Below are positions 5,664 to 13,662 of a stretch of DNA of 64,000 nt, one piece after another; within the stretch, counting starts at the first letter, position 1; the number at the start of each line of letters is the position of its first letter. Both the position numbers and the translations under genes were made by a program. The notes below the pieces were generated by a model. It saw only the letters and a list, made by a program, of their open reading frames with translations, was not told where the DNA came from and ran no database searches. This stretch comes from Comamonadaceae bacterium (GTDB lineage: Bacteria > Pseudomonadota > Gammaproteobacteria > Burkholderiales > Burkholderiaceae_C): assembly GCA_947450645.1 (NCBI GenBank), contig CANFWH010000004.1, forward strand, positions 1 through 64,000. Reading direction: 5' to 3'.

Positions 5664-7121
5664 GTGTCCCCGACGCCCACATCTCAGCCCATAGTCGCCA
5701 TCGCCACCGCCCTTGGGCGCGGCGCGGTCGGCATTGTGCGGGTGAGCGGAATCGGCATAACGCCTATCGTGCAAAGCCTTTGTGGACGTGGCTTGCAGCC
5801 GCGCGAGGCAACCTATTTGCCATTCCAAGACGCACAAGGCCATGCGATTGATTCAGGTCTCGCCCTCTTCTTTCCTGCCCCGCATTCCTACACAGGCGAA
5901 GACGTTTTAGAGCTGCAAGCGCACGGCGGCGCAGTCGTCATGCAACTGCTGCTGGCGCGTTGTTTAGAGGCAGGTAAAGATCTCGGTATTCGCATCGCAC
6001 GCGCAGGCGAGTTCACCGAACGAGCCTTCCTCAACGACAAGTTAGACCTCGCGCAAGCCGAAGCCGTGGCCGATTTGATTGACGCCAGCACCGAAGCGGC
6101 GGCACGCTCGGCCAGCCGCTCGCTGTCGGGCGAGTTCTCCAGCACGATTCATGTGCTGCGTGATGCGCTCATCCATCTGCGGATGCTCGTTGAAGCCACG
6201 CTAGATTTCCCTGAAGAAGACATCGACTTTTTGCAGCAAGCGGATGCACGTGGGCAGCTGCAAAAACTGCAAACGCAATTAGCCGCCGTGATGCAGCGCA
6301 CAACCCAAGGGGCGCTCTTGCGTGAAGGCATCAAGCTGGTGATTGCTGGTCAACCTAATGCGGGCAAAAGCTCGCTCTTAAATGCCCTCGCAGGCGCAGA
6401 ACTCGCCATCGTCACTCCCATTGCGGGCACGACGCGCGACGTGGTGCAGCAGACCATCCAAATTGAAGGCGTACCTGTGCATGTGCTGGATACAGCGGGT
6501 CTCAGAGACAGCACGGCAGAACAAGTGGACGAAGTCGAAAAAATCGGCATCGAACGCGCCTGGCAGCACATTGATAGCGCCGACGTGATTGTGTTTTTGC
6601 ATGACTTAACTAAACAAGGCGATGCCGCGCATGCCAAGCGGGACAAGGCTTTGCAAGCACGCCTACCCACAAGTCGCACGGTGATTGATGTGTGGAACAA
6701 GGCGGATGTTCAATCAAGTATGAACGCCGATGCCGCAGCAAACAATGGGGGTCGGGTGCAGGGAGCCGCTAGCGGCGATTCGTCACCTGACCCCCATTGG
6801 CTTGCGACCCGAAGCGTGAAGTTGTCAGCAAAAACAGGCGTAGGACTCGCCGATCTACGCCAAGCCATCTTGAAGGCCGTAGGCTGGCAAGCCGCCCCCG
6901 AAGGCCTCTTCATCGCTCGTCAGCGCCACGTCCACGCCCTGCAAGGCGTAGGCGAGCATTTGGAACTAGCCCGCGAGCATTTAGAGAGCAAAGCGCCTGC
7001 GCTAGAAGTGATTGCCGAAGAGCTACGCCTCGCCTTAAACGATCTCTCCAGCATCACAGGCGAGTTCACGCCAGACGATTTGCTGGGCGAGATTTTTTCT
7101 AAGTTTTGTATTGGTAAGTAA
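5664..7121 (+). CDS. mnmE: tRNA uridine-5-carboxymethylaminomethyl modification GTPase MnmE
   Basis: A 485-residue GTPase that, with MnmG, makes the cmnm5 modification of U34 in tRNA anticodons. The N-terminal tetrahydrofolate-binding domain starts with [18 protein letters not shown]. The G domain shows GQPNAGKSS (residues 229-237), GTTRD (255-259) and DTAGLR (276-281), and the protein ends in the catalytic FCIGK. The start is GTG at 5664, three bases after the yidC stop. The protein is about 30 residues longer than E. coli MnmE. The excess lies at residues about 354-382, between NKADV and the SVKLSAKTG strand, exactly where a palindromic DNA element (6744-6798) sits. Confidence 0.97.
6744..6798. 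repeat. 55-bp palindromic element inside mnmE
   Basis: A 15-bp left arm (6744-6758, starting AATGGGGGTC) pairs with a right arm (6784-6798, ending GACCCCCATT) with one mismatch. The loop contains a perfect 12-bp palindrome, GCCGCTAGCGGC (6765-6776). It is translated in frame, and its right end encodes DPHWLA. A related element lies in uppP, where the same end encodes DPNWLA. Confidence 0.75.
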
Positions 7122-7136
7122 CGCGAGAAAGCACCC

Positions 7137-8606
7137 ATGTTCGAACAAGCCTTTAAAAATATCGACGACGTGCTGTGGAAAGAAGCGGGTTGCACCACCG
7201 AGCTGGACTACACCGAGCAAACCTCGTGGTTACTCTTCCTCAAGTACCTAGAGAGCTTGGAGCAAGACAAAACCAACGAGGCATTGCTGACAGGAAAAAC
7301 CTACAAACCCATACTGGATAAGGCTTTCCAGTGGGCTACGTGGGCTGCGCCCAAAGATGCAAACAATAAGCTAGGGGAAAGCAAGCTAGACCATAAGACG
7401 GCGACGACAGGTGACGACCTGCGCGACTTCGTCAACAAAGAATTGTTCCCGTACCTAGAGGGCTTTAAAGCCAAAGCCAGCGGCCCCAATACGATTGAGT
7501 ACAAGATTGGTGAAATCTTTGGTGAGATTAAAAACAAAATCCAAAGCGGCTACAACCTGCGCGAAATCATCAACCACATCGACGAGCTTCAGTTTGGCTC
7601 ACAGCAAGAGAAGCACGAGCTCTCGCACCTGTACGAAGCCAAGATTAAAAACATGGGTAACGCGGGGCGCAATGGCGGCGAGTACTACACGCCGCGCCCT
7701 TTAATTCGCGCCATCATCCAAGTGGTGCAGCCGCAAATTGGCGAGCGCGTGTACGACGGCGCGGTGGGCTCGGCAGGCTTTTTGTGCGAGGCGTTCGAGC
7801 ACATGCGTAGCAAGCCAAACCTCAGCACACGGGACATCAAAACACTGCAACAAAACACTTTCTTTGGCAAAGAGAAAAAGTCGCTCGCGTATGTGATGGC
7901 GATCATGAACATGATCCTGCACGGCATCGAAGCGCCCAACATCATCCATACCAACACACTCACCGAAAACTTGGCGGACGTGCAAGACAAAGACCGCTAT
8001 GACGTCATCCTTGCCAACCCGCCCTTTGGCGGCAAAGAGCGCAAAGAGGTGCAGGAAAACTTCAACATCAAAACGGGCGAGACCGCGTTCTTGTTTTTGC
8101 AGCACTTCATCAAAATGCTCAAAGCGGGTGGACGTGCGGGCGTGGTCATCAAAAACACGTTTCTCTCCAATACCGATAACGCCTCCGTCAGCTTGCGCAA
8201 GTTATTGCTAGAGAGCAGCAACCTGCACACCGTGCTCGATTGCCCAGGCGGCACGTTCCTAGGTGCAGGCGTGAAGACCGTGGTGCTGTTCTTCGAGAAA
8301 GGTGCGCCCACGCGCAAGGTTTGGTACTACCAGCTAGAGCCAGGGCGCAATATGGGCAAGACCAATCCGCTCAACGACAACGACTTAGCGGAATTTGTCG
8401 CCTTGCAAAAAAACTTTGCCACCACAGCCAAAAGCTGGAGTGTGGATGTGGGCAGCATCGACCCCAAAACGTTTGATTTGTCTGTCAAAAATCCAGATGC
8501 AGGCGAGGCAGTCGTGCATCGCAGTCCCAGCGCCATCATGGACGAGATAGCGCTCTTGGATGCCGAGAGCGCAGGGTTGCTTTCAAGTATTCGGGCGCTG
8601 CTATGA
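7137..8606 (+). CDS. hsdM: type I restriction-modification system, DNA methyltransferase subunit HsdM
   Basis: A 489-residue adenine-N6 methyltransferase subunit. It has the HsdM N-terminal helical domain (residues 1-about 140), the SAM-binding motif I region VYDGAVGSAGFL, and the catalytic motif IV NPPFGG in YDVILANPPFGG. Methylation needs HsdS for sequence recognition and protects the host from HsdR cleavage. It begins 15 bp after mnmE and overlaps hsdS by 4 bp (ATGA). The locus is inserted between mnmE and crcB, neither of which has any functional tie to it. Confidence 0.95.
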   Translation: MFEQAFKNIDDVLWKEAGCTTELDYTEQTSWLLFLKYLESLEQDKTNEALLTGKTYKPILDKAFQWATWAAPKDANNKLGESKLDHKTATTGDDLRDFVNKELFPYLEGFKAKASGPNTIEYKIGEIFGEIKNKIQSGYNLREIINHIDELQFGSQQEKHELSHLYEAKIKNMGNAGRNGGEYYTPRPLIRAIIQVVQPQIGERVYDGAVGSAGFLCEAFEHMRSKPNLSTRDIKTLQQNTFFGKEKKSLAYVMAIMNMILHGIEAPNIIHTNTLTENLADVQDKDRYDVILANPPFGGKERKEVQENFNIKTGETAFLFLQHFIKMLKAGGRAGVVIKNTFLSNTDNASVSLRKLLLESSNLHTVLDCPGGTFLGAGVKTVVLFFEKGAPTRKVWYYQLEPGRNMGKTNPLNDNDLAEFVALQKNFATTAKSWSVDVGSIDPKTFDLSVKNPDAGEAVVHRSPSAIMDEIALLDAESAGLLSSIRALL

Positions 8607-9805
8607 AAGCAGGGTGGGAGACGAGGGCGCTTGGGGAAGTTTGCAAAGTTATTGGAGGTGGTACGCCATCAAAAGATAACGCGGCGTTTTATTCAGGCGA
8701 TATTCCGTGGGCAACAGTTCGCGATATGCGACAAGATGTTATTACGACAACTGAGTGCTCGGTGACGCGTGAGGCAATAAAGAGTAGCGCGACGAACATC
8801 ATTCCAAGTGGCAACGTAGTTATTGCAACACGTGTGGGCTTGGGCAAAGTATGTTTGCTAGGCCAGGACACTGCGATCAACCAAGACCTTCGTGGCATTG
8901 TTCCAATTAGCACAAAGACTCTTTCCGTTCGATTTTTATATTGGTGGTTGAAAGACATTGCAGATTTAATAATTGCAGAAGGCACTGGTGCAACAGTGCA
9001 AGGCGTAAAACTGCCGTTTGTTAAATCGCTGCAAATCCCACTCCCCCCACTCCCCGAGCAACACCGCATCGTCGCCATTCTTGACAAGGCATTTGATGGC
9101 ATCGCCAAAGCCAAAGCCGCTGCCGAAGCGAATTTGCAAAACGCTCGCGCTGTGTTTGAGAGTCACTTGCAAGAGGTGTTTACGCGGCGTGGGGATGGGT
9201 GGGTGGAGACGACGCTGGATAAAGCATCCGAAATCGTTAATGGTTTTGCGTTTAAAAGTGAAGATTTTTCGCCGCTAGAGACGGTGAAGTGCATCAAGAT
9301 TACAAACGTTGGCGTTAAAACGTTTGTGACGGAGTCGGACAGTTATCTTCCGACACGTTTTATGTCGCAACAAAAAGCGGTATCGGTTGACGCTGGAAAT
9401 ATAGTTATTGCTCTCACGCGATCCATTATTTCGGCAGGTTTGAAAATCGCAATTGTCCCTAAAGATTACGATGGAGCCTTGGTAAATCAACGCGTTGCAG
9501 CGATCAAGCCGCATCCTAATGTTGCATTACCAGTATTTCTTTATTCGTACTTGTCCACGCAGGCAGTTGTTGATTACGTAAAGGCACGAGTTAATACATT
9601 GATGCAGCCAAATCTCTCAATTGTTGATCTGCGCTCAATGCCCATTCCGCTACCTTCACTTGAAATACAAAAAGAAATTTGCCGGAAACTCAATCAACTT
9701 AATGCGCAAACCCAGCATCTCGAATCCCTCTATCAGCGCAAAATCGCCGCGCTGGATGAGTTGAAGAAGTCGCTGCTGCATCAAGCGTTTAGTGGGGCGC
9801 TTTGA
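8603..9805 (+). CDS. hsdS: type I restriction-modification system, specificity subunit HsdS
   Basis: A 400-residue specificity subunit with the standard two-fold layout. The first target recognition domain is at residues about 1-150 (WETRALGEVCKVIGGGTPSK...). The central conserved coiled-coil region begins IPLPPLPEQHRIVAILD (about 148-195). The second recognition domain starts at GWVETTLDKASEIVNGFAF, and the C-terminal conserved helix follows MPIPLPSLEIQKEI and ends KKSLLHQAFSGAL. The recognition domains are visibly more AT-rich than the flanking conserved parts, as expected for exchangeable cassettes. The target sequence cannot be predicted by eye. Confidence 0.93.
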   Translation: MKAGWETRALGEVCKVIGGGTPSKDNAAFYSGDIPWATVRDMRQDVITTTECSVTREAIKSSATNIIPSGNVVIATRVGLGKVCLLGQDTAINQDLRGIVPISTKTLSVRFLYWWLKDIADLIIAEGTGATVQGVKLPFVKSLQIPLPPLPEQHRIVAILDKAFDGIAKAKAAAEANLQNARAVFESHLQEVFTRRGDGWVETTLDKASEIVNGFAFKSEDFSPLETVKCIKITNVGVKTFVTESDSYLPTRFMSQQKAVSVDAGNIVIALTRSIISAGLKIAIVPKDYDGALVNQRVAAIKPHPNVALPVFLYSYLSTQAVVDYVKARVNTLMQPNLSIVDLRSMPIPLPSLEIQKEICRKLNQLNAQTQHLESLYQRKIAALDELKKSLLHQAFSGAL

Positions 9806-9895
9806 GCAACTGTCGACATTTTGTCGATAGTTGAGTTTTGAAAATGAGTTGGTTACGTTTTGTAACCGACTGATATGTGTTGATATGTCGATGCT

Positions 9896-9922
9896 ATCGA
9901 CATGAGCTTATTTAGTGTCGAT
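9896..9922 (+). repeat. 27-bp operator-like unit A
   Basis: ATCGACAT at the left and TGTCGAT at the right, with half-site starts exactly 20 bp apart; the interior reads GAGCTTATTTAG. It overlaps the right half of palindrome 9886-9902. Confidence 0.7.
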
Positions 9923-10055
9923 GTTTTGCGATTTCTTCGACATATCGCCCATGACGCGATAAGAAAATCGCATTTTCTTTACACGTTTGGGTCAATATGA
10001 TCAAAAAAGTCGATTTTCTATACATGTTGGCAGGCGTGATGGATACGTACACGCA

Positions 10056-10082
10056 ATCGACATAAGTTCATTTAGTGTCGAT
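10056..10082 (+). repeat. 27-bp operator-like unit B
   Basis: Same architecture as unit A with interior AAGTTCATTTAG; half-site starts are 20 bp apart. It begins the first half of a 70-bp near-duplication (10056-10125 versus 10126 onward). Confidence 0.7.
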
Positions 10083-10095
10083 AAAATCAAAAAAC

Positions 10096-10122
10096 GTCGA
10101 CATAAAGTGTTGACATGTCGAT
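10096..10122 (+). repeat. 27-bp operator-like unit C
   Basis: Left half GTCGACAT (one difference), right half TGTCGAT, starts 20 bp apart. The interior contains the TTGACA -35 hexamer of the predicted fic promoter. Confidence 0.7.
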
Positions 10123-10138
10123 TCAATCGACATAAAGT
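10110..10138 (+). promoter_or_regulatory. predicted fic-hsdR promoter with operator as spacer
   Basis: A perfect -35 hexamer TTGACA (10110-10115) and a -10 hexamer TAAAGT (10133-10138, 4 of 6 consensus) are separated by exactly 17 bp (10116-10132). Those 17 bp are the perfect palindrome TGTCGAT-tca-ATCGACA. A protein bound there would directly block RNA polymerase. Transcription would start near 10145, about 27 bases before the fic ATG. A poorer copy (TTGATA followed by a palindrome) lies at 9880-9902. Confidence 0.6.
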
Positions 10139-10152
10139 CACAACGTGTCGAT
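10126..10152 (+). repeat. 27-bp operator-like unit D
   Basis: ATCGACAT ... TGTCGAT, starts 20 bp apart. It spans the predicted -10 box and transcription start of fic, and its right half ends 19 bp before the fic ATG. Confidence 0.7.
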
Positions 10153-10171
10153 AAAATCGAAAAACATAAAC

Positions 10172-11284
10172 ATGACTACAACGCCTTGGCAATCTGATCA
10201 GCCTTTTAACGGGCTGCCAAATCTGCCGCCTTTGGATGAAATTGAAACGCGTGCCGTGCTACGTCAGTGTATTGCTGCGCGTGCTGCGCTTGGTGAGTTG
10301 AAGCAGGCCGCTTTGTTGATACCGAATCAGTCGGTACTGATCAATACGTTGCCGCTTTTGGAGGCGAAGTCTAGCTCTGAGATTGAAAACATTGTCACAA
10401 CGACGGACAAATTGTTTGAGCATGCCCAAAACGAAGATCGCGCAGACCCTGCGACGAAAGAGGCGCTGCGTTATAGCCGCGCTTTATTCCGAGGTTTTCA
10501 CGATTTAGTGGCGCGTCCTTTAAGCACCCGCACTGCCGAAGGTATTTGCACGCTCATTAAAGGCGTGGAGATGAGCGTGCGGCGTGTGCCTGGCACCAAG
10601 CTTGTGAATGACGCAACGGGAGAGGTGATCTACACCCCGCCTGATGGCGAAGCACATCTGCGGGATTTGCTTGCCAATTGGGAGCGCTTTTTGCACAATG
10701 AGACGGACTTAGACCCTCTCATTCGTATGGCGATTGGGCATTACCAGTTTGAAGCTATTCATCCATTTACCGACGGTAATGGGCGTACTGGAAGGGTTAT
10801 CAATAGTTTGTTTTTGATTCAAGAGGACTTACTGACTTTGCCCATTTTGTATTTGAGTCGCTACATCATTGCACACAAAGCAGACTATTACCGCTTGCTT
10901 TTGGAGGTGACGAAACATCAAGCATGGGAGGCGTGGCTGCTTTTCATGATTAAGGGCGTAGAAGAAACGGCTGTTTGGACGACGCAAAAAATTGCGGCTA
11001 TTCGAAGTCTGTCGGAACATACAACGCAATACGTTAGACAAAAACTACCCAAAATTTACAGCTACGAATTAGTGAGCCTTATTTTTAAGCTGCCTTATAG
11101 CCGAATCAATAACTTGATGGAAGCCGATATTGCTAAACGTCAAACGGCCTCGCAATACCTGAAACAATTGGTGGATATTGGTGTGCTTGCGCCAGCCAAT
11201 ATCAGCCGAGAAAGATTATTTGTGCATCCTAAACTGATGCAACTACTCACGCGCGACAGCAACGATTTCACGCCGTATGAATGA
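10172..11284 (+). CDS. fic: Fic-family protein AMPylator, type I RM-associated
   Basis: A 370-residue Fic protein, predicted to transfer AMP or a related nucleotide moiety to a hydroxyl side chain of a target protein. The catalytic motif HPFTDGNGRTGR is complete at residues 197-208. An N-terminal inhibitory motif of the form S-xxx-E-N is present at residues 68-73, so this is a self-inhibited class II Fic. The last 80 or so residues (KIYSYELVSLIFKLPYSRINNLMEADIAKR...) look like a winged helix, suggesting DNA binding. A GTG at 10145 in the same frame lies inside the operator repeats; I prefer ATG 10172, although it has no clear Shine-Dalgarno. It overlaps hsdR by 8 bp. Confidence 0.88.
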   Translation: MTTTPWQSDQPFNGLPNLPPLDEIETRAVLRQCIAARAALGELKQAALLIPNQSVLINTLPLLEAKSSSEIENIVTTTDKLFEHAQNEDRADPATKEALRYSRALFRGFHDLVARPLSTRTAEGICTLIKGVEMSVRRVPGTKLVNDATGEVIYTPPDGEAHLRDLLANWERFLHNETDLDPLIRMAIGHYQFEAIHPFTDGNGRTGRVINSLFLIQEDLLTLPILYLSRYIIAHKADYYRLLLEVTKHQAWEAWLLFMIKGVEETAVWTTQKIAAIRSLSEHTTQYVRQKLPKIYSYELVSLIFKLPYSRINNLMEADIAKRQTASQYLKQLVDIGVLAPANISRERLFVHPKLMQLLTRDSNDFTPYE

Positions 11285-13214
11285 AGCCGAAACCCGTGCC
11301 GAGCACATTGACCCTGCGCTAGCCCTTGCTGGCTGGGGCGTGCAGGCGGGTAGTCATAGCCTGAGTCGTGTGCGACGTGAGTTTTCGATTACAGAGGGGC
11401 GTATCGAGGGCGGTGGCAAGCGCGGCAAGGCTTTGACTGCCGATTACGTGCTGGAATACAAAGGCATCAAGCTTGCCGTGATTGAAGCCAAAGCGTTTGA
11501 TCTGCCACTCACCGAGGGACTGGCGCAAGCCAAAAACTACGCCGATAAATTGCAGCTTCGCTTTGCCTATGCCACCAACGGGCGGGGTTTTTACCGCGTG
11601 GATATGCACACGGGCGCAGAGGGTGAGTTGGCGGGTTTGATGGACGGATTCCCTACGCCCGAGCAGCTGTGGGAGCTCACCTTTGGCAAACCCAATGCGA
11701 TGGAATTAGCTACACCGGCTGAACTTTGGCGTGATCGTTTTGCCCTAGTGCCGTATCCAGATAAAAGTGGTTCATGGTCGATTCGGTTTTATCAAGAGTT
11801 GGCGGTCCAGGCGGTGCTTCGCAAAATGGCCGCAGGCGAGAAGCGGGTGTTGCTCACGCTGGCAACGGGTACGGGAAAAACGTCAATTGCGTTTCAGATT
11901 GCTTGGAAGCTATTTCAAACGCGTTGGAACTTAAGCGGTGAACCCACGCGCCGCCCACGCATTTTGTTTTTGGCAGACCGCAACAATTTGGCCACGCAGG
12001 CGTACAACGACTTCACGTCGTTTGCTGCGTTTGCCGATGACGCGCTGGTACGCATCAAGCCTGACGAAATTAGGAAAAAAGGGCGCGTGCCGACGAATGG
12101 CAGTTTGTTCTTTACGATCTTTCAAACCTTTATGAGTGGCACGGACGCAGCAGGCGAGGCAGCGCCTTACTTTGGTGAGTATTCAAAAGATTTTTTTGAC
12201 CTCATCATCATTGACGAATGCCACCGAGGCGGCGCCAATGACGAAGGCACATGGCGTGGCATCCTTGAGTATTTTTCGCCTGCTGTGCAACTGGGCTTAA
12301 CCGCCACACCCAAGCGCAAAGACAATACGAACACCTACGCGTATTTTGGCGAGCCTGCGTTTGTCTATTCGCTCAAAGACGGCATCAATGATGGCTTTTT
12401 GACACCGTTTCGTGTCAAGCAAATTTCGACCACGCTGGATGAGTATGTCTACACGCCTGACGACACGGTACTGGACGGTGAGGTTGAGACGGGCAAGCGT
12501 TACGTAGAGGCGGACTTTAACCGCATCATCGAAATTGCCGCGCGCGAAAAAGCGCGAGTGGATATCTTGATGAATGCCATCGACCAGCGGCAAAAAACGA
12601 TTGTGTTTTGTGCCACGCAGGCACATGCCTTGGCGGTGCGCGACCTCATCAATCAATGCAAAACCAGTAGCGACCCCAACTATTGCCAGCGCGTCACGGC
12701 GAATGATGGCGCGCTTGGTGAGCAGCACCTCAAAGATTTTCAGGACAACGAAAAATCAATTCCAACGATTTTGACGACTTCGCAAAAACTCTCCACGGGC
12801 GTGGACGCGAGGAATGTTCGCAACATTGTGCTGATGCGCCCTGTGAACAACATCATCGAGTTCAAACAAATCATTGGGCGCGGCACGCGCTTATTTGAGG
12901 GCAAAGACTATTTCACGATTTATGATTTCGTCAAAGCTTATGAGCACTTTAGCGATCCCGAATGGGATGGCGAGGCGATAGAAGTTGAGACAGCAACCGA
13001 TCCTCTGCAACCGCCAAAGCCAACAGCGATGCCCTATCCAGCCGCGCCGCAAAGTCAGCCGCTTGAAGTGCGCGAACGCGCCGCCAAAATCAAAGTGAAA
13101 TTAGCGGACGGCAAGGCGCGGACGATTCAGCACATGACGGCTACGAGTTTTTGGCATCCTGACGGCACACCCATGTCGGCGCAGCAATTTATGGAAGCGC
13201 TGTTTGGTAAATAG
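11277..13214 (+). CDS. hsdR: type I restriction subunit HsdR, truncated by in-frame amber codon
   Basis: The ATP-dependent translocase/endonuclease subunit of the type I system (EcoEI-like). The N-terminal nuclease domain shows D56 and E70-A-K72 of the PD-(D/E)XK core. Helicase motifs are ATGTGKT (196-202), DECH (313-316) and TATPKR (from 342), with a C-terminal motif IIGRGTRLFEGKDYFTIYDF. The frame stops at TAG (13212-13214) after MEALFGK, at a point where homologues continue. The sequence after the stop reads on in the same frame for 148 codons of recognisable HsdR. The product therefore keeps nuclease and motor domains but loses the C-terminal helical domain that docks on the methyltransferase. 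It is probably non-functional unless the stop is read through or is a sequencing error. Confidence 0.9.
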   Translation: MNEAETRAEHIDPALALAGWGVQAGSHSLSRVRREFSITEGRIEGGGKRGKALTADYVLEYKGIKLAVIEAKAFDLPLTEGLAQAKNYADKLQLRFAYATNGRGFYRVDMHTGAEGELAGLMDGFPTPEQLWELTFGKPNAMELATPAELWRDRFALVPYPDKSGSWSIRFYQELAVQAVLRKMAAGEKRVLLTLATGTGKTSIAFQIAWKLFQTRWNLSGEPTRRPRILFLADRNNLATQAYNDFTSFAAFADDALVRIKPDEIRKKGRVPTNGSLFFTIFQTFMSGTDAAGEAAPYFGEYSKDFFDLIIIDECHRGGANDEGTWRGILEYFSPAVQLGLTATPKRKDNTNTYAYFGEPAFVYSLKDGINDGFLTPFRVKQISTTLDEYVYTPDDTVLDGEVETGKRYVEADFNRIIEIAAREKARVDILMNAIDQRQKTIVFCATQAHALAVRDLINQCKTSSDPNYCQRVTANDGALGEQHLKDFQDNEKSIPTILTTSQKLSTGVDARNVRNIVLMRPVNNIIEFKQIIGRGTRLFEGKDYFTIYDFVKAYEHFSDPEWDGEAIEVETATDPLQPPKPTAMPYPAAPQSQPLEVRERAAKIKVKLADGKARTIQHMTATSFWHPDGTPMSAQQFMEALFGK

Positions 13215-13661
13215 CCCGATTTTTTTGCCAGCGAGACGGAGTTGCGCGGGCTGTGGAGTGACCCGCTGACACGTAAAAAATTGCTGGCAGGCCTTGCTGA
13301 TAAAGGCTTTGGCAAAGCCCAGTTGCTAGAGATGCAGCGCATCATCGAAGCGTCAAACTCCGACTTGTTTGATGTGCTCGCCCATGTGGCGTATGCGCTT
13401 GAGCCGCTGACGCGCAAGATGCGAGCTGACCGTGCGATGGCTGGGGTCAGCGAGCATTTCAGCGCCAAGCACCAAGTGTTTTTAGACTTTGTTCTGGCGC
13501 ACTATGTCGATTTGGGCGTGGATGAATTAGATGTCGAGAACCTGCGCGGACTGCTGACGCTGAAATACAGCGACTCGATGAGCGATGCGTTAAAAGATTT
13601 AGGTGCGCCGCAAGAGATCAATCGAACGTTTTGCGGGTTTCAAAAATATCTCTATGCCTGA
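13215..13661 (+). pseudogene. hsdR: C-terminal part of hsdR beyond the amber codon
   Basis: It continues hsdR in the same frame (11277, 13215 and 13661 are in register): PDFFASETELRGLWSDPLTR, then KKLLAGLADKGFGKAQLLEM, ending with the EcoEI-type terminus EINRTFCGFQKYLYA. This is the domain that contacts HsdM/HsdS. The only internal start codons are weak (TTG 13242, or ATGs well inside the domain), and I see no Shine-Dalgarno. Independent translation is therefore unlikely. The absence of any further stop or frameshift suggests the lesion is recent. Confidence 0.85.
13287..13312 (-). repeat. 26-bp palindromic repeat in hsdR remnant
   Basis: On the minus strand: left arm GCCAAAGCC, core TTTATCAGC, right arm AAGGCCTGC. 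It is translated as part of AGLADKGFG. Confidence 0.5.
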
Positions 13662-13662
13662 G

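Follow-up and report, generated by a model that had tools for sequence, protein, structure and literature searches.

Autorepression by a Fic protein has been described for CccR of Yersinia pseudotuberculosis, a Fic-HTH protein that represses its own promoter via its HTH part (PMC9755527). In the sections of that report drawn on here, the C-terminal HTH of CccR binds a palindrome near its own -35/-10 region, for which a dimer is needed, and the operator is a single 46-nt footprint with 10-bp arms and a 26-bp spacer; CccR is described as a secreted effector, and the same sections contain no link to hsd genes (PMC9755527). CbFic2 of Coxiella burnetii is a class II Fic with a DNA-binding C-terminal winged helix; the portion of the study used here reports work with random DNA sequences and defines no operator, and states that DNA binding by SoFic had not been shown (PMC10628234). 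The anti-phage protein Sofic (PMC12249575) belongs to the same family as the Fic protein analysed here. According to the available text of that paper, wild-type EcSofic is toxic on leaky expression, the C-terminal domain has a role, auto-inhibition is said to be incomplete and an antitoxin, AS1, is proposed, whose mode is not known; how toxic Sofic is held down in healthy cells is, as far as that text goes, only partly explained, and it makes no mention of DNA-binding, helix–turn–helix, wHTH, transcription or autoregulation (PMC12249575).

A search that covered chiefly the open-access literature, with preprints outside its range, returned no publication on a SoFic operator or on control of hsd genes by Fic. 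Fic autorepression as such is therefore known from CccR, and we found no report of the spaced code seen here. Our analysis of a 64-kb window (the whole stretch of DNA that was analysed) points to an auto-operator, an array of spaced inverted repeats in front of fic through which Fic would repress fic and, along with it, hsdR; judging from the sequence, we give this reading a probability of about 0.82. The array is very probably the landing site of Fic, because its repeats recur before fic across very different bacteria and vary in step with the DNA-reading part of Fic. Fic at this locus would thus work like CccR, with a different operator.

The array occupies the 366 bp between hsdS and fic (9806-10171, the coordinates given in the original prediction) and holds 13 TGTCG/CGACA cores. 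It is built of alternating inverted repeats, a short dyad (N, 17 bp) and a long dyad (W, 27 bp), with 7-bp arms and spacers of 3 bp (N) and 13 bp (W); start-to-start distances are 30 bp from N to W and 40 bp from W to N, giving a unit of 70 bp (Table 1). This alternation of 17- and 27-bp dyads, like the lengths of arms and spacers, is unlike the CccR operator. The two perfect 17-bp palindromes that had been predicted, TGTCGAT-N3-ATCGACA, are present as N1 and N3. The predicted 70-bp near-duplication is likewise real: it is the duplicated N + W, with 50-nt copies at 10054 and 10124 that are 80% alike and a third copy at 9894 that is 70% alike, and it was seen because the N/W unit repeats every 70 bp (30 + 40). 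What had been counted as four 27-bp units is better described as three inverted units, W1 to W3, plus everted spacings between dyads, although the 7-mer half-sites inside a unit do start 20 bp apart. W3 overlaps the fic start codon by a single base, the A of the ATG at 10172. Between W1 and N2 lie two degenerate units, 41 bp apart, that resemble the half-site of another SoFic subclade.

Table 1. Features of the hsd-fic locus, in window positions; dyads and half-sites have no strand
Feature	Position	Strand	Basis or remark
hsdM, type I modification subunit	7137..8606	+	Pfam N6_Mtase, HsdM_N; PADLOC MTase_I
hsdS, type I specificity subunit	8603..9805	+	Pfam Methylase_S
First half-site cluster, TGTCGACA and TGTCGAT	9811..9828	no strand	sequence, core positions
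Terminator-like 10-bp hairpin after hsdS	9847..9871	+	terminator scan, fold z, alignment with L089
Short dyad N1, perfect TGTCGAT-N3-ATCGACA	9886..9902	no strand	
Long dyad W1, 27 bp, 1 mismatch	9916..9942	no strand	
Two degenerate units with TTTACACG and TATACATG	9958-9987, 9999-10028	no strand	
Short dyad N2, left half degenerate	10046..10062	no strand	by eye; 70-bp repeat
Long dyad W2, 27 bp, 1 mismatch	10076..10102	no strand	
Sigma-70-like promoter TTGACA-17-TAAAGT	10110..10138	+	scan, 10/12 letters
Short dyad N3, perfect	10116..10132	no strand	coincides exactly with the promoter spacer
Long dyad W3, 27 bp, 2 mismatches	10146..10172	no strand	covers the inferred start of transcription and the leader
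fic, SoFic-type class II Fic protein, 370 aa	10172..11284	+	start ATG 10172
C-terminal winged helix of Fic, residues 298-360	11063..11251	+	AlphaFold model, Pfam PF21248
Recognition helix, residues 323-335, starts RQTASQ	11138..11176	+	AlphaFold model; covariation
hsdR	11277..13214	+	first 8 bp overlap fic end; in-frame TAG 13212-13214
Remainder of hsdR frame past stop	13215..13661	+	

Allowing up to three mismatches, the 64-kb window has 7 matches to the palindrome, and 5 of these fall within the array; 100 shuffles gave a mean of 1.72 and none with 7. Counted over 200 bp, the cores reach a maximum of 7 in the array, compared with 4 in the rest of the window. The array is also unusually long, its 13 cores in 366 bp comparing with a median of 5, and only one of 77 homologous upstream regions equals 13. 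Rfam gave no match to a known RNA element in the array up to an E value of 1.

The fic frame is open and its catalytic motif is intact, the pattern HPFx[D/E]GN[G/K]R being found as HPFTDGNGRTGR in the translation. Pfam recognizes Fic_N, Fic and SoFic-like_C domains, PADLOC assigns SoFic at 1.8e-119, and SoFic chains in the PDB match residues 5-369 at 2.7e-157 to 4.5e-155, so that by family the protein is classed as a SoFic-type anti-phage AMPylating enzyme. The N-terminal inhibitory motif, for which we take the pattern of class II Fic proteins to be [S/T]xxxE[G/N], appears as SSEIEN at residues 68-73. A C-terminal SoFic-like winged helix is found both by PF21248 (9.9e-33) and in the AlphaFold model, which was built from an eight-sequence alignment with a mean pLDDT of 75.7 and, for the winged-helix part, values of 73-93 per ten residues.

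Arrays of this kind are conserved in front of homologous fic genes. Our test set comprised the best 80 of 583 relatives (named loci, 57-74% identical to the window Fic), 77 of which had 300 bp of upstream DNA, with controls of 300 bp past the stop (78 loci) and 300 bp located 1.5 kb upstream (72 loci). The window and the loci read first, all outside the 80 test loci, supplied the core motif, and near-identical loci were kept in for the inverted-repeat, strict-dyad and core counts. At least three NCGACA cores lie in the 300 bp before fic in 68/77 of these loci (from the best 80 of 583), against 1/78 and 1/72 in the controls, and the remaining 9/77 upstream regions have fewer than three; this conservation before homologous fic genes supports the reading as an operator array. 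A stricter shuffle test using dyads only was passed by 39/77 regions (controls 1/78 and 0/71); this test has too little power where a locus has few sites, and the count of cores was set beside it. Inverted repeats spanning 17, 19, 21, 25, 27 and 29 bp occur in 37-69 copies upstream versus 1-6 per control. Core spacings across the 77 loci favour 12 bp (59 pairs), 22 bp (62) and 18 bp (93), and at longer range 30 bp (54 pairs), 40 bp (46) and 70 bp (47), over a background with a mean of about 2 pairs per distance. In E. coli EC1515 the annotated fic is preceded by W-N-W-N-W, with long dyads that by eye are degenerate on the right, and core-bearing loci also occur under the record labels Proteobacteria, Acidobacteria, Planctomycetota and Spirochaetae (labels of assembled genomes, taken as given) and on a Mesorhizobium plasmid.

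Already among the first upstream regions inspected, fic genes without hsd neighbours bore arrays. In the test set, with flanks of up to 7 kb considered, 8/9 loci with detected hsd genes and 60/68 without them carry the array; the count of hsd-linked loci is a lower bound, because that search overlooked HsdR in locus L121, where Pfam confirms it. The array is tied to fic rather than to restriction. As separate observations, one locus (L122, genome G385) has a second array immediately after fic (7104-7260), and among distant Fic proteins of about 30% identity that arose in the first k-mer screen (L021-L031), several have, by eye, AAAG/CTTTAAT-type repeats before the gene.

The letters of the repeats covary with the recognition helix of the adjacent Fic. 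Among proteins of at least 55% identity (L183 omitted), an RQT helix is paired with TCGACA in 58/61 decided cases (6 more have none or a tie) and an RQA helix with another first base in 27/34 (3 more with none or a tie), an association with a Fisher P of 4e-14. In a tree of the Fic part without the winged helix, computed for 92 proteins having two or more sites and a majority (182 branches), the residue changes 11 times and the site 8 times, and 5/8 site changes, including two reversions, share a branch with a residue change; the P of about 1.5e-5 is rough, because branches were treated as equal. For the comparisons, 145 loci were reduced to 88 by identical C-terminal sequence, and alignments were then required to exceed 200 bits. 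Rarer helices pair with other words, in small numbers: RH with GCGCC (L115, and more weakly L228), SRQTA with TTAACA (L126, L127, L145), SR[LI]TA with TATACA (L085, L102, L104), SRPTA with TTTACA (L101) and HRNTA with TGTGCA (L124). This comparison omitted L039, L051, L054, L117 and L137, which are cut or broken, and gave no repeated word for most of the remaining members of the 40-46% subclade or for the HRNTA proteins L082 and L140.

The original prediction had named the winged-helix end of Fic a candidate DNA-binding part, and both the conservation and the recognition-helix covariation support it as the reader. The evidence that the HTH of Fic sets the site specificity is covariation, which has exceptions: 7 RQA proteins have TCGACA and 3 RQT proteins have another base, and since some RQT proteins lack TCGACA (L199, L204, L218), other residues must matter or sites have been lost. 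It had also been stated that the cluster contains no regulator gene. Among open reading frames of at least 80 aa that do not overlap the named genes, the stretch spanned by hsdM and hsdR shows no further gene, and the regulator is very probably fic itself. The array could instead be read by some other regulator of the host, as might be thought from the occurrence of some arrays without any fic nearby. However, the letters of the site track the helix of the adjacent Fic, the spread of cores over several labelled phyla and a plasmid makes one shared host factor unlikely, and in the source genome the palindrome at up to one mismatch is confined to the array, which together leave a host reader highly improbable.

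The fit of the array to the promoter suggests how Fic might act. A dimer or oligomer of Fic would bind the array via its C-terminal winged helices, with one half-site per domain. N3 would sit between -35 and -10 and W3 over the transcription start, and from this placement bound Fic should exclude RNA polymerase, repressing rather than activating, and keep its own level low; the upstream N + W copies may contribute cooperativity, and phage attack may lift the repression. The promoter scan as such found 2 sites versus 1.3 expected, which is not above chance, and the promoter call therefore rests on the layout recurring in homologous loci: a promoter with a dyad as its spacer is found in 30/77 of them and in 0/78 and 0/72 controls. 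As with CccR, then, a palindrome lies at the gene's own -35/-10 region. With hsdR overlapping fic, and a terminator-like hairpin placed after hsdS, repression of fic would extend to hsdR but spare hsdMS, and fic-hsdR probably form one transcript under Fic control, as the gene layout suggests. The hairpin is one of 4 sites found by the terminator scan (0.6 expected), has fold z scores of -5.3 and -5.1, and in the relative G003 (locus L089) has one pair altered on both sides and another changed from G-U to G-C; it is perhaps the end of the hsdMS transcript.

Restriction-modification systems offer a precedent for a different purpose. Type II systems with C proteins carry the gene for their own regulator; this protein occupies spaced operators at the promoter from which it is itself expressed, and it influences the restriction gene. 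The original prediction saw the array as parting the modification genes from fic and hsdR, with restriction timed to follow methylation; the array would then mainly delay restriction, Fic acting like such a controller protein so that HsdR appears after methylation by HsdM/HsdS. The separation is plausible here, where the array, the terminator-like hairpin and a promoter-like site stand between hsdMS and fic-hsdR. Similar placements occur elsewhere: hsdR and hsdM/hsdS were both found in 13 loci (the window, L096, L105, L121, L129, L133, L149, L150, L179, L191, L196, L202 and L219), and in 12 of these the array lies between the R and M/S genes, the sole exception being L129, where it precedes fic-hsdM-hsdS and hsdR lies farther along. 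L121 has an N-W-N array (7131-7385) about 170 bp before the first hsdR start codon while fic overlaps hsdS (HsdR by Pfam), and in L096 the array comes after hsdS and is followed by two small genes, fic and hsdR; in neither is the array directly before fic. As the purpose of the array, however, restriction control is argued against by the 60/68 loci that carry it with no detected hsd genes, and by six loci (L133, L179, L191, L196, L202, L219) in which it precedes fic-hsdM-hsdS, so that the methylase would be the regulated part there. A repressor by itself, moreover, gives hsdR no lag behind fic, and the hsdR of the source genome has an in-frame stop. Unlike the C-protein systems, we have type I genes, an enzyme as the regulator, and an array found mostly without detected hsd genes. 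Since the placement of the array differs among hsd loci, the regulated part varies; array-timed restriction is not general, and we regard a delay of restriction as the main role as rather unlikely. Under autorepression by Fic, an anti-phage enzyme is the likely regulator of type I genes.

The stop in hsdR falls after 645 residues, whereas hsdM and hsdS are open, and owing to it the three type I genes are not all uninterrupted; residues 1-147 of the frame that follows match the C-terminal part of the uninterrupted 797-aa HsdR of the relative L149, and the stop could be a real pseudogene or an assembly error (the source assembly is 2.47 Mb in 76 contigs). The gene order is mnmE, hsdM, hsdS, array, fic, hsdR and then crcB on the opposite strand, with hsdM starting 15 bp past mnmE. 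In a genome of the same genus (G004) a crcB-like gene by eye directly follows mnmE, and the 6.5-kb hsd-fic block (7122-13662) therefore looks like an insertion. The array could be a relic or repeat element with no present function, for example from earlier fic modules, which would agree with the interrupted hsdR, with arrays elsewhere that lack fic or stand beside fic pieces, and with the degenerate TATACATG-like units inside the array. Against a relic, fic is open with its catalytic motif, and G003 keeps the array at a mean column identity of 91% with promoter and N3 unchanged; we consider it very unlikely. In G003, which is of the same genus, fic is 99% identical while the hsdS match is far weaker, as if the specificity gene had been swapped.

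The original prediction suggested looking for the palindrome elsewhere in the genome. At up to one mismatch it occurs in the 2.47-Mb genome only at 9886, 10116 and 10146, all in the array, and a regulon elsewhere in the genome was accordingly rejected at this threshold. The 27-bp form with one mismatch has four sites, two in the array and two elsewhere, and at up to three mismatches the two patterns have 166 and 187 matches versus 71 and 74 for the reversed patterns. Across 399 genomes of the order, the N-W unit is found in 77 at up to two mismatches (14 for the reversed control) and in 38 at up to one. A fic match lies within 1 kb in 18/38 genomes, of which 16 are uninterrupted, one (G101) has a stop and one (G307) an internal deletion; 5 others show fragments of fic or a contig that breaks off within it, one has another Fic (L316), and G443 has a Fic fragment at a distance of about 4.7 kb, with G249 outside the count. 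In 12/38, Fic similarity is absent from the stretch fetched; N-W arrays without fic in that stretch include those of L308, L309, L311, L313, L315, L318 and L319. A class-wide scan (array in 31/369 genomes) served only for choosing examples. A gene with a SoFic winged helix beside fic-less arrays was sought with the profile on open reading frames of at least 50 aa in 30 loci and was rejected, the hits being three complete or partial fic genes and one marginal Fic (L316). No common gene was seen among 20 chosen neighbour proteins by Pfam; these neighbours comprise, among others, hsdM, Nmad2 and SNF2 genes, an AbiEi-like gene that scores under the curated cut-off, a schlafen-like gene carrying Fic-like_C, and housekeeping genes. 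The fic-less arrays may be remnants or sites of other regulators, and both are possible.

For Sofic, an operator would give the C-terminal domain a part in reading DNA, with sites that are predictable from the protein, and a conserved operator together with a partial recognition-helix code makes the restraint of Sofic directly testable. Could the array then be more than an operator? If it were a DNA-borne antitoxin and state reader, the N and W dyads would suit two conformations of the Fic dimer, the promoter would sense the nucleotide state, and bound Fic would be both a repressor and a restrained enzyme; phage attack would free Fic, whereupon Fic and HsdR would rise and AMPylation would be unleashed at once. 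In the parts of the two studies drawn on here, the C-terminal domains of Sofic are placed differently in apo and ATP-bound structures (PMC12249575), and the activity of CbFic2 is altered by DNA binding (PMC10628234). However, the toxicity of EcSofic is there described as requiring the dimer, the opposite of what is proposed for CbFic2 (PMC12249575, PMC10628234), and we consider this extension quite improbable.

A second type of half-site, TATACAT, is found in 7/16 hsd-linked and 2/96 other upstream regions (Fisher P of 1e-5, which is not that of a planned test, because the motif was first seen in L191, L202, L219 and the window). The degenerate units of the window array (9958-10028) resemble it, and TATACA precedes certain fic genes from another subclade (L085, L102, L104). 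A swap of one fic module for another in hsd loci would explain these sites.
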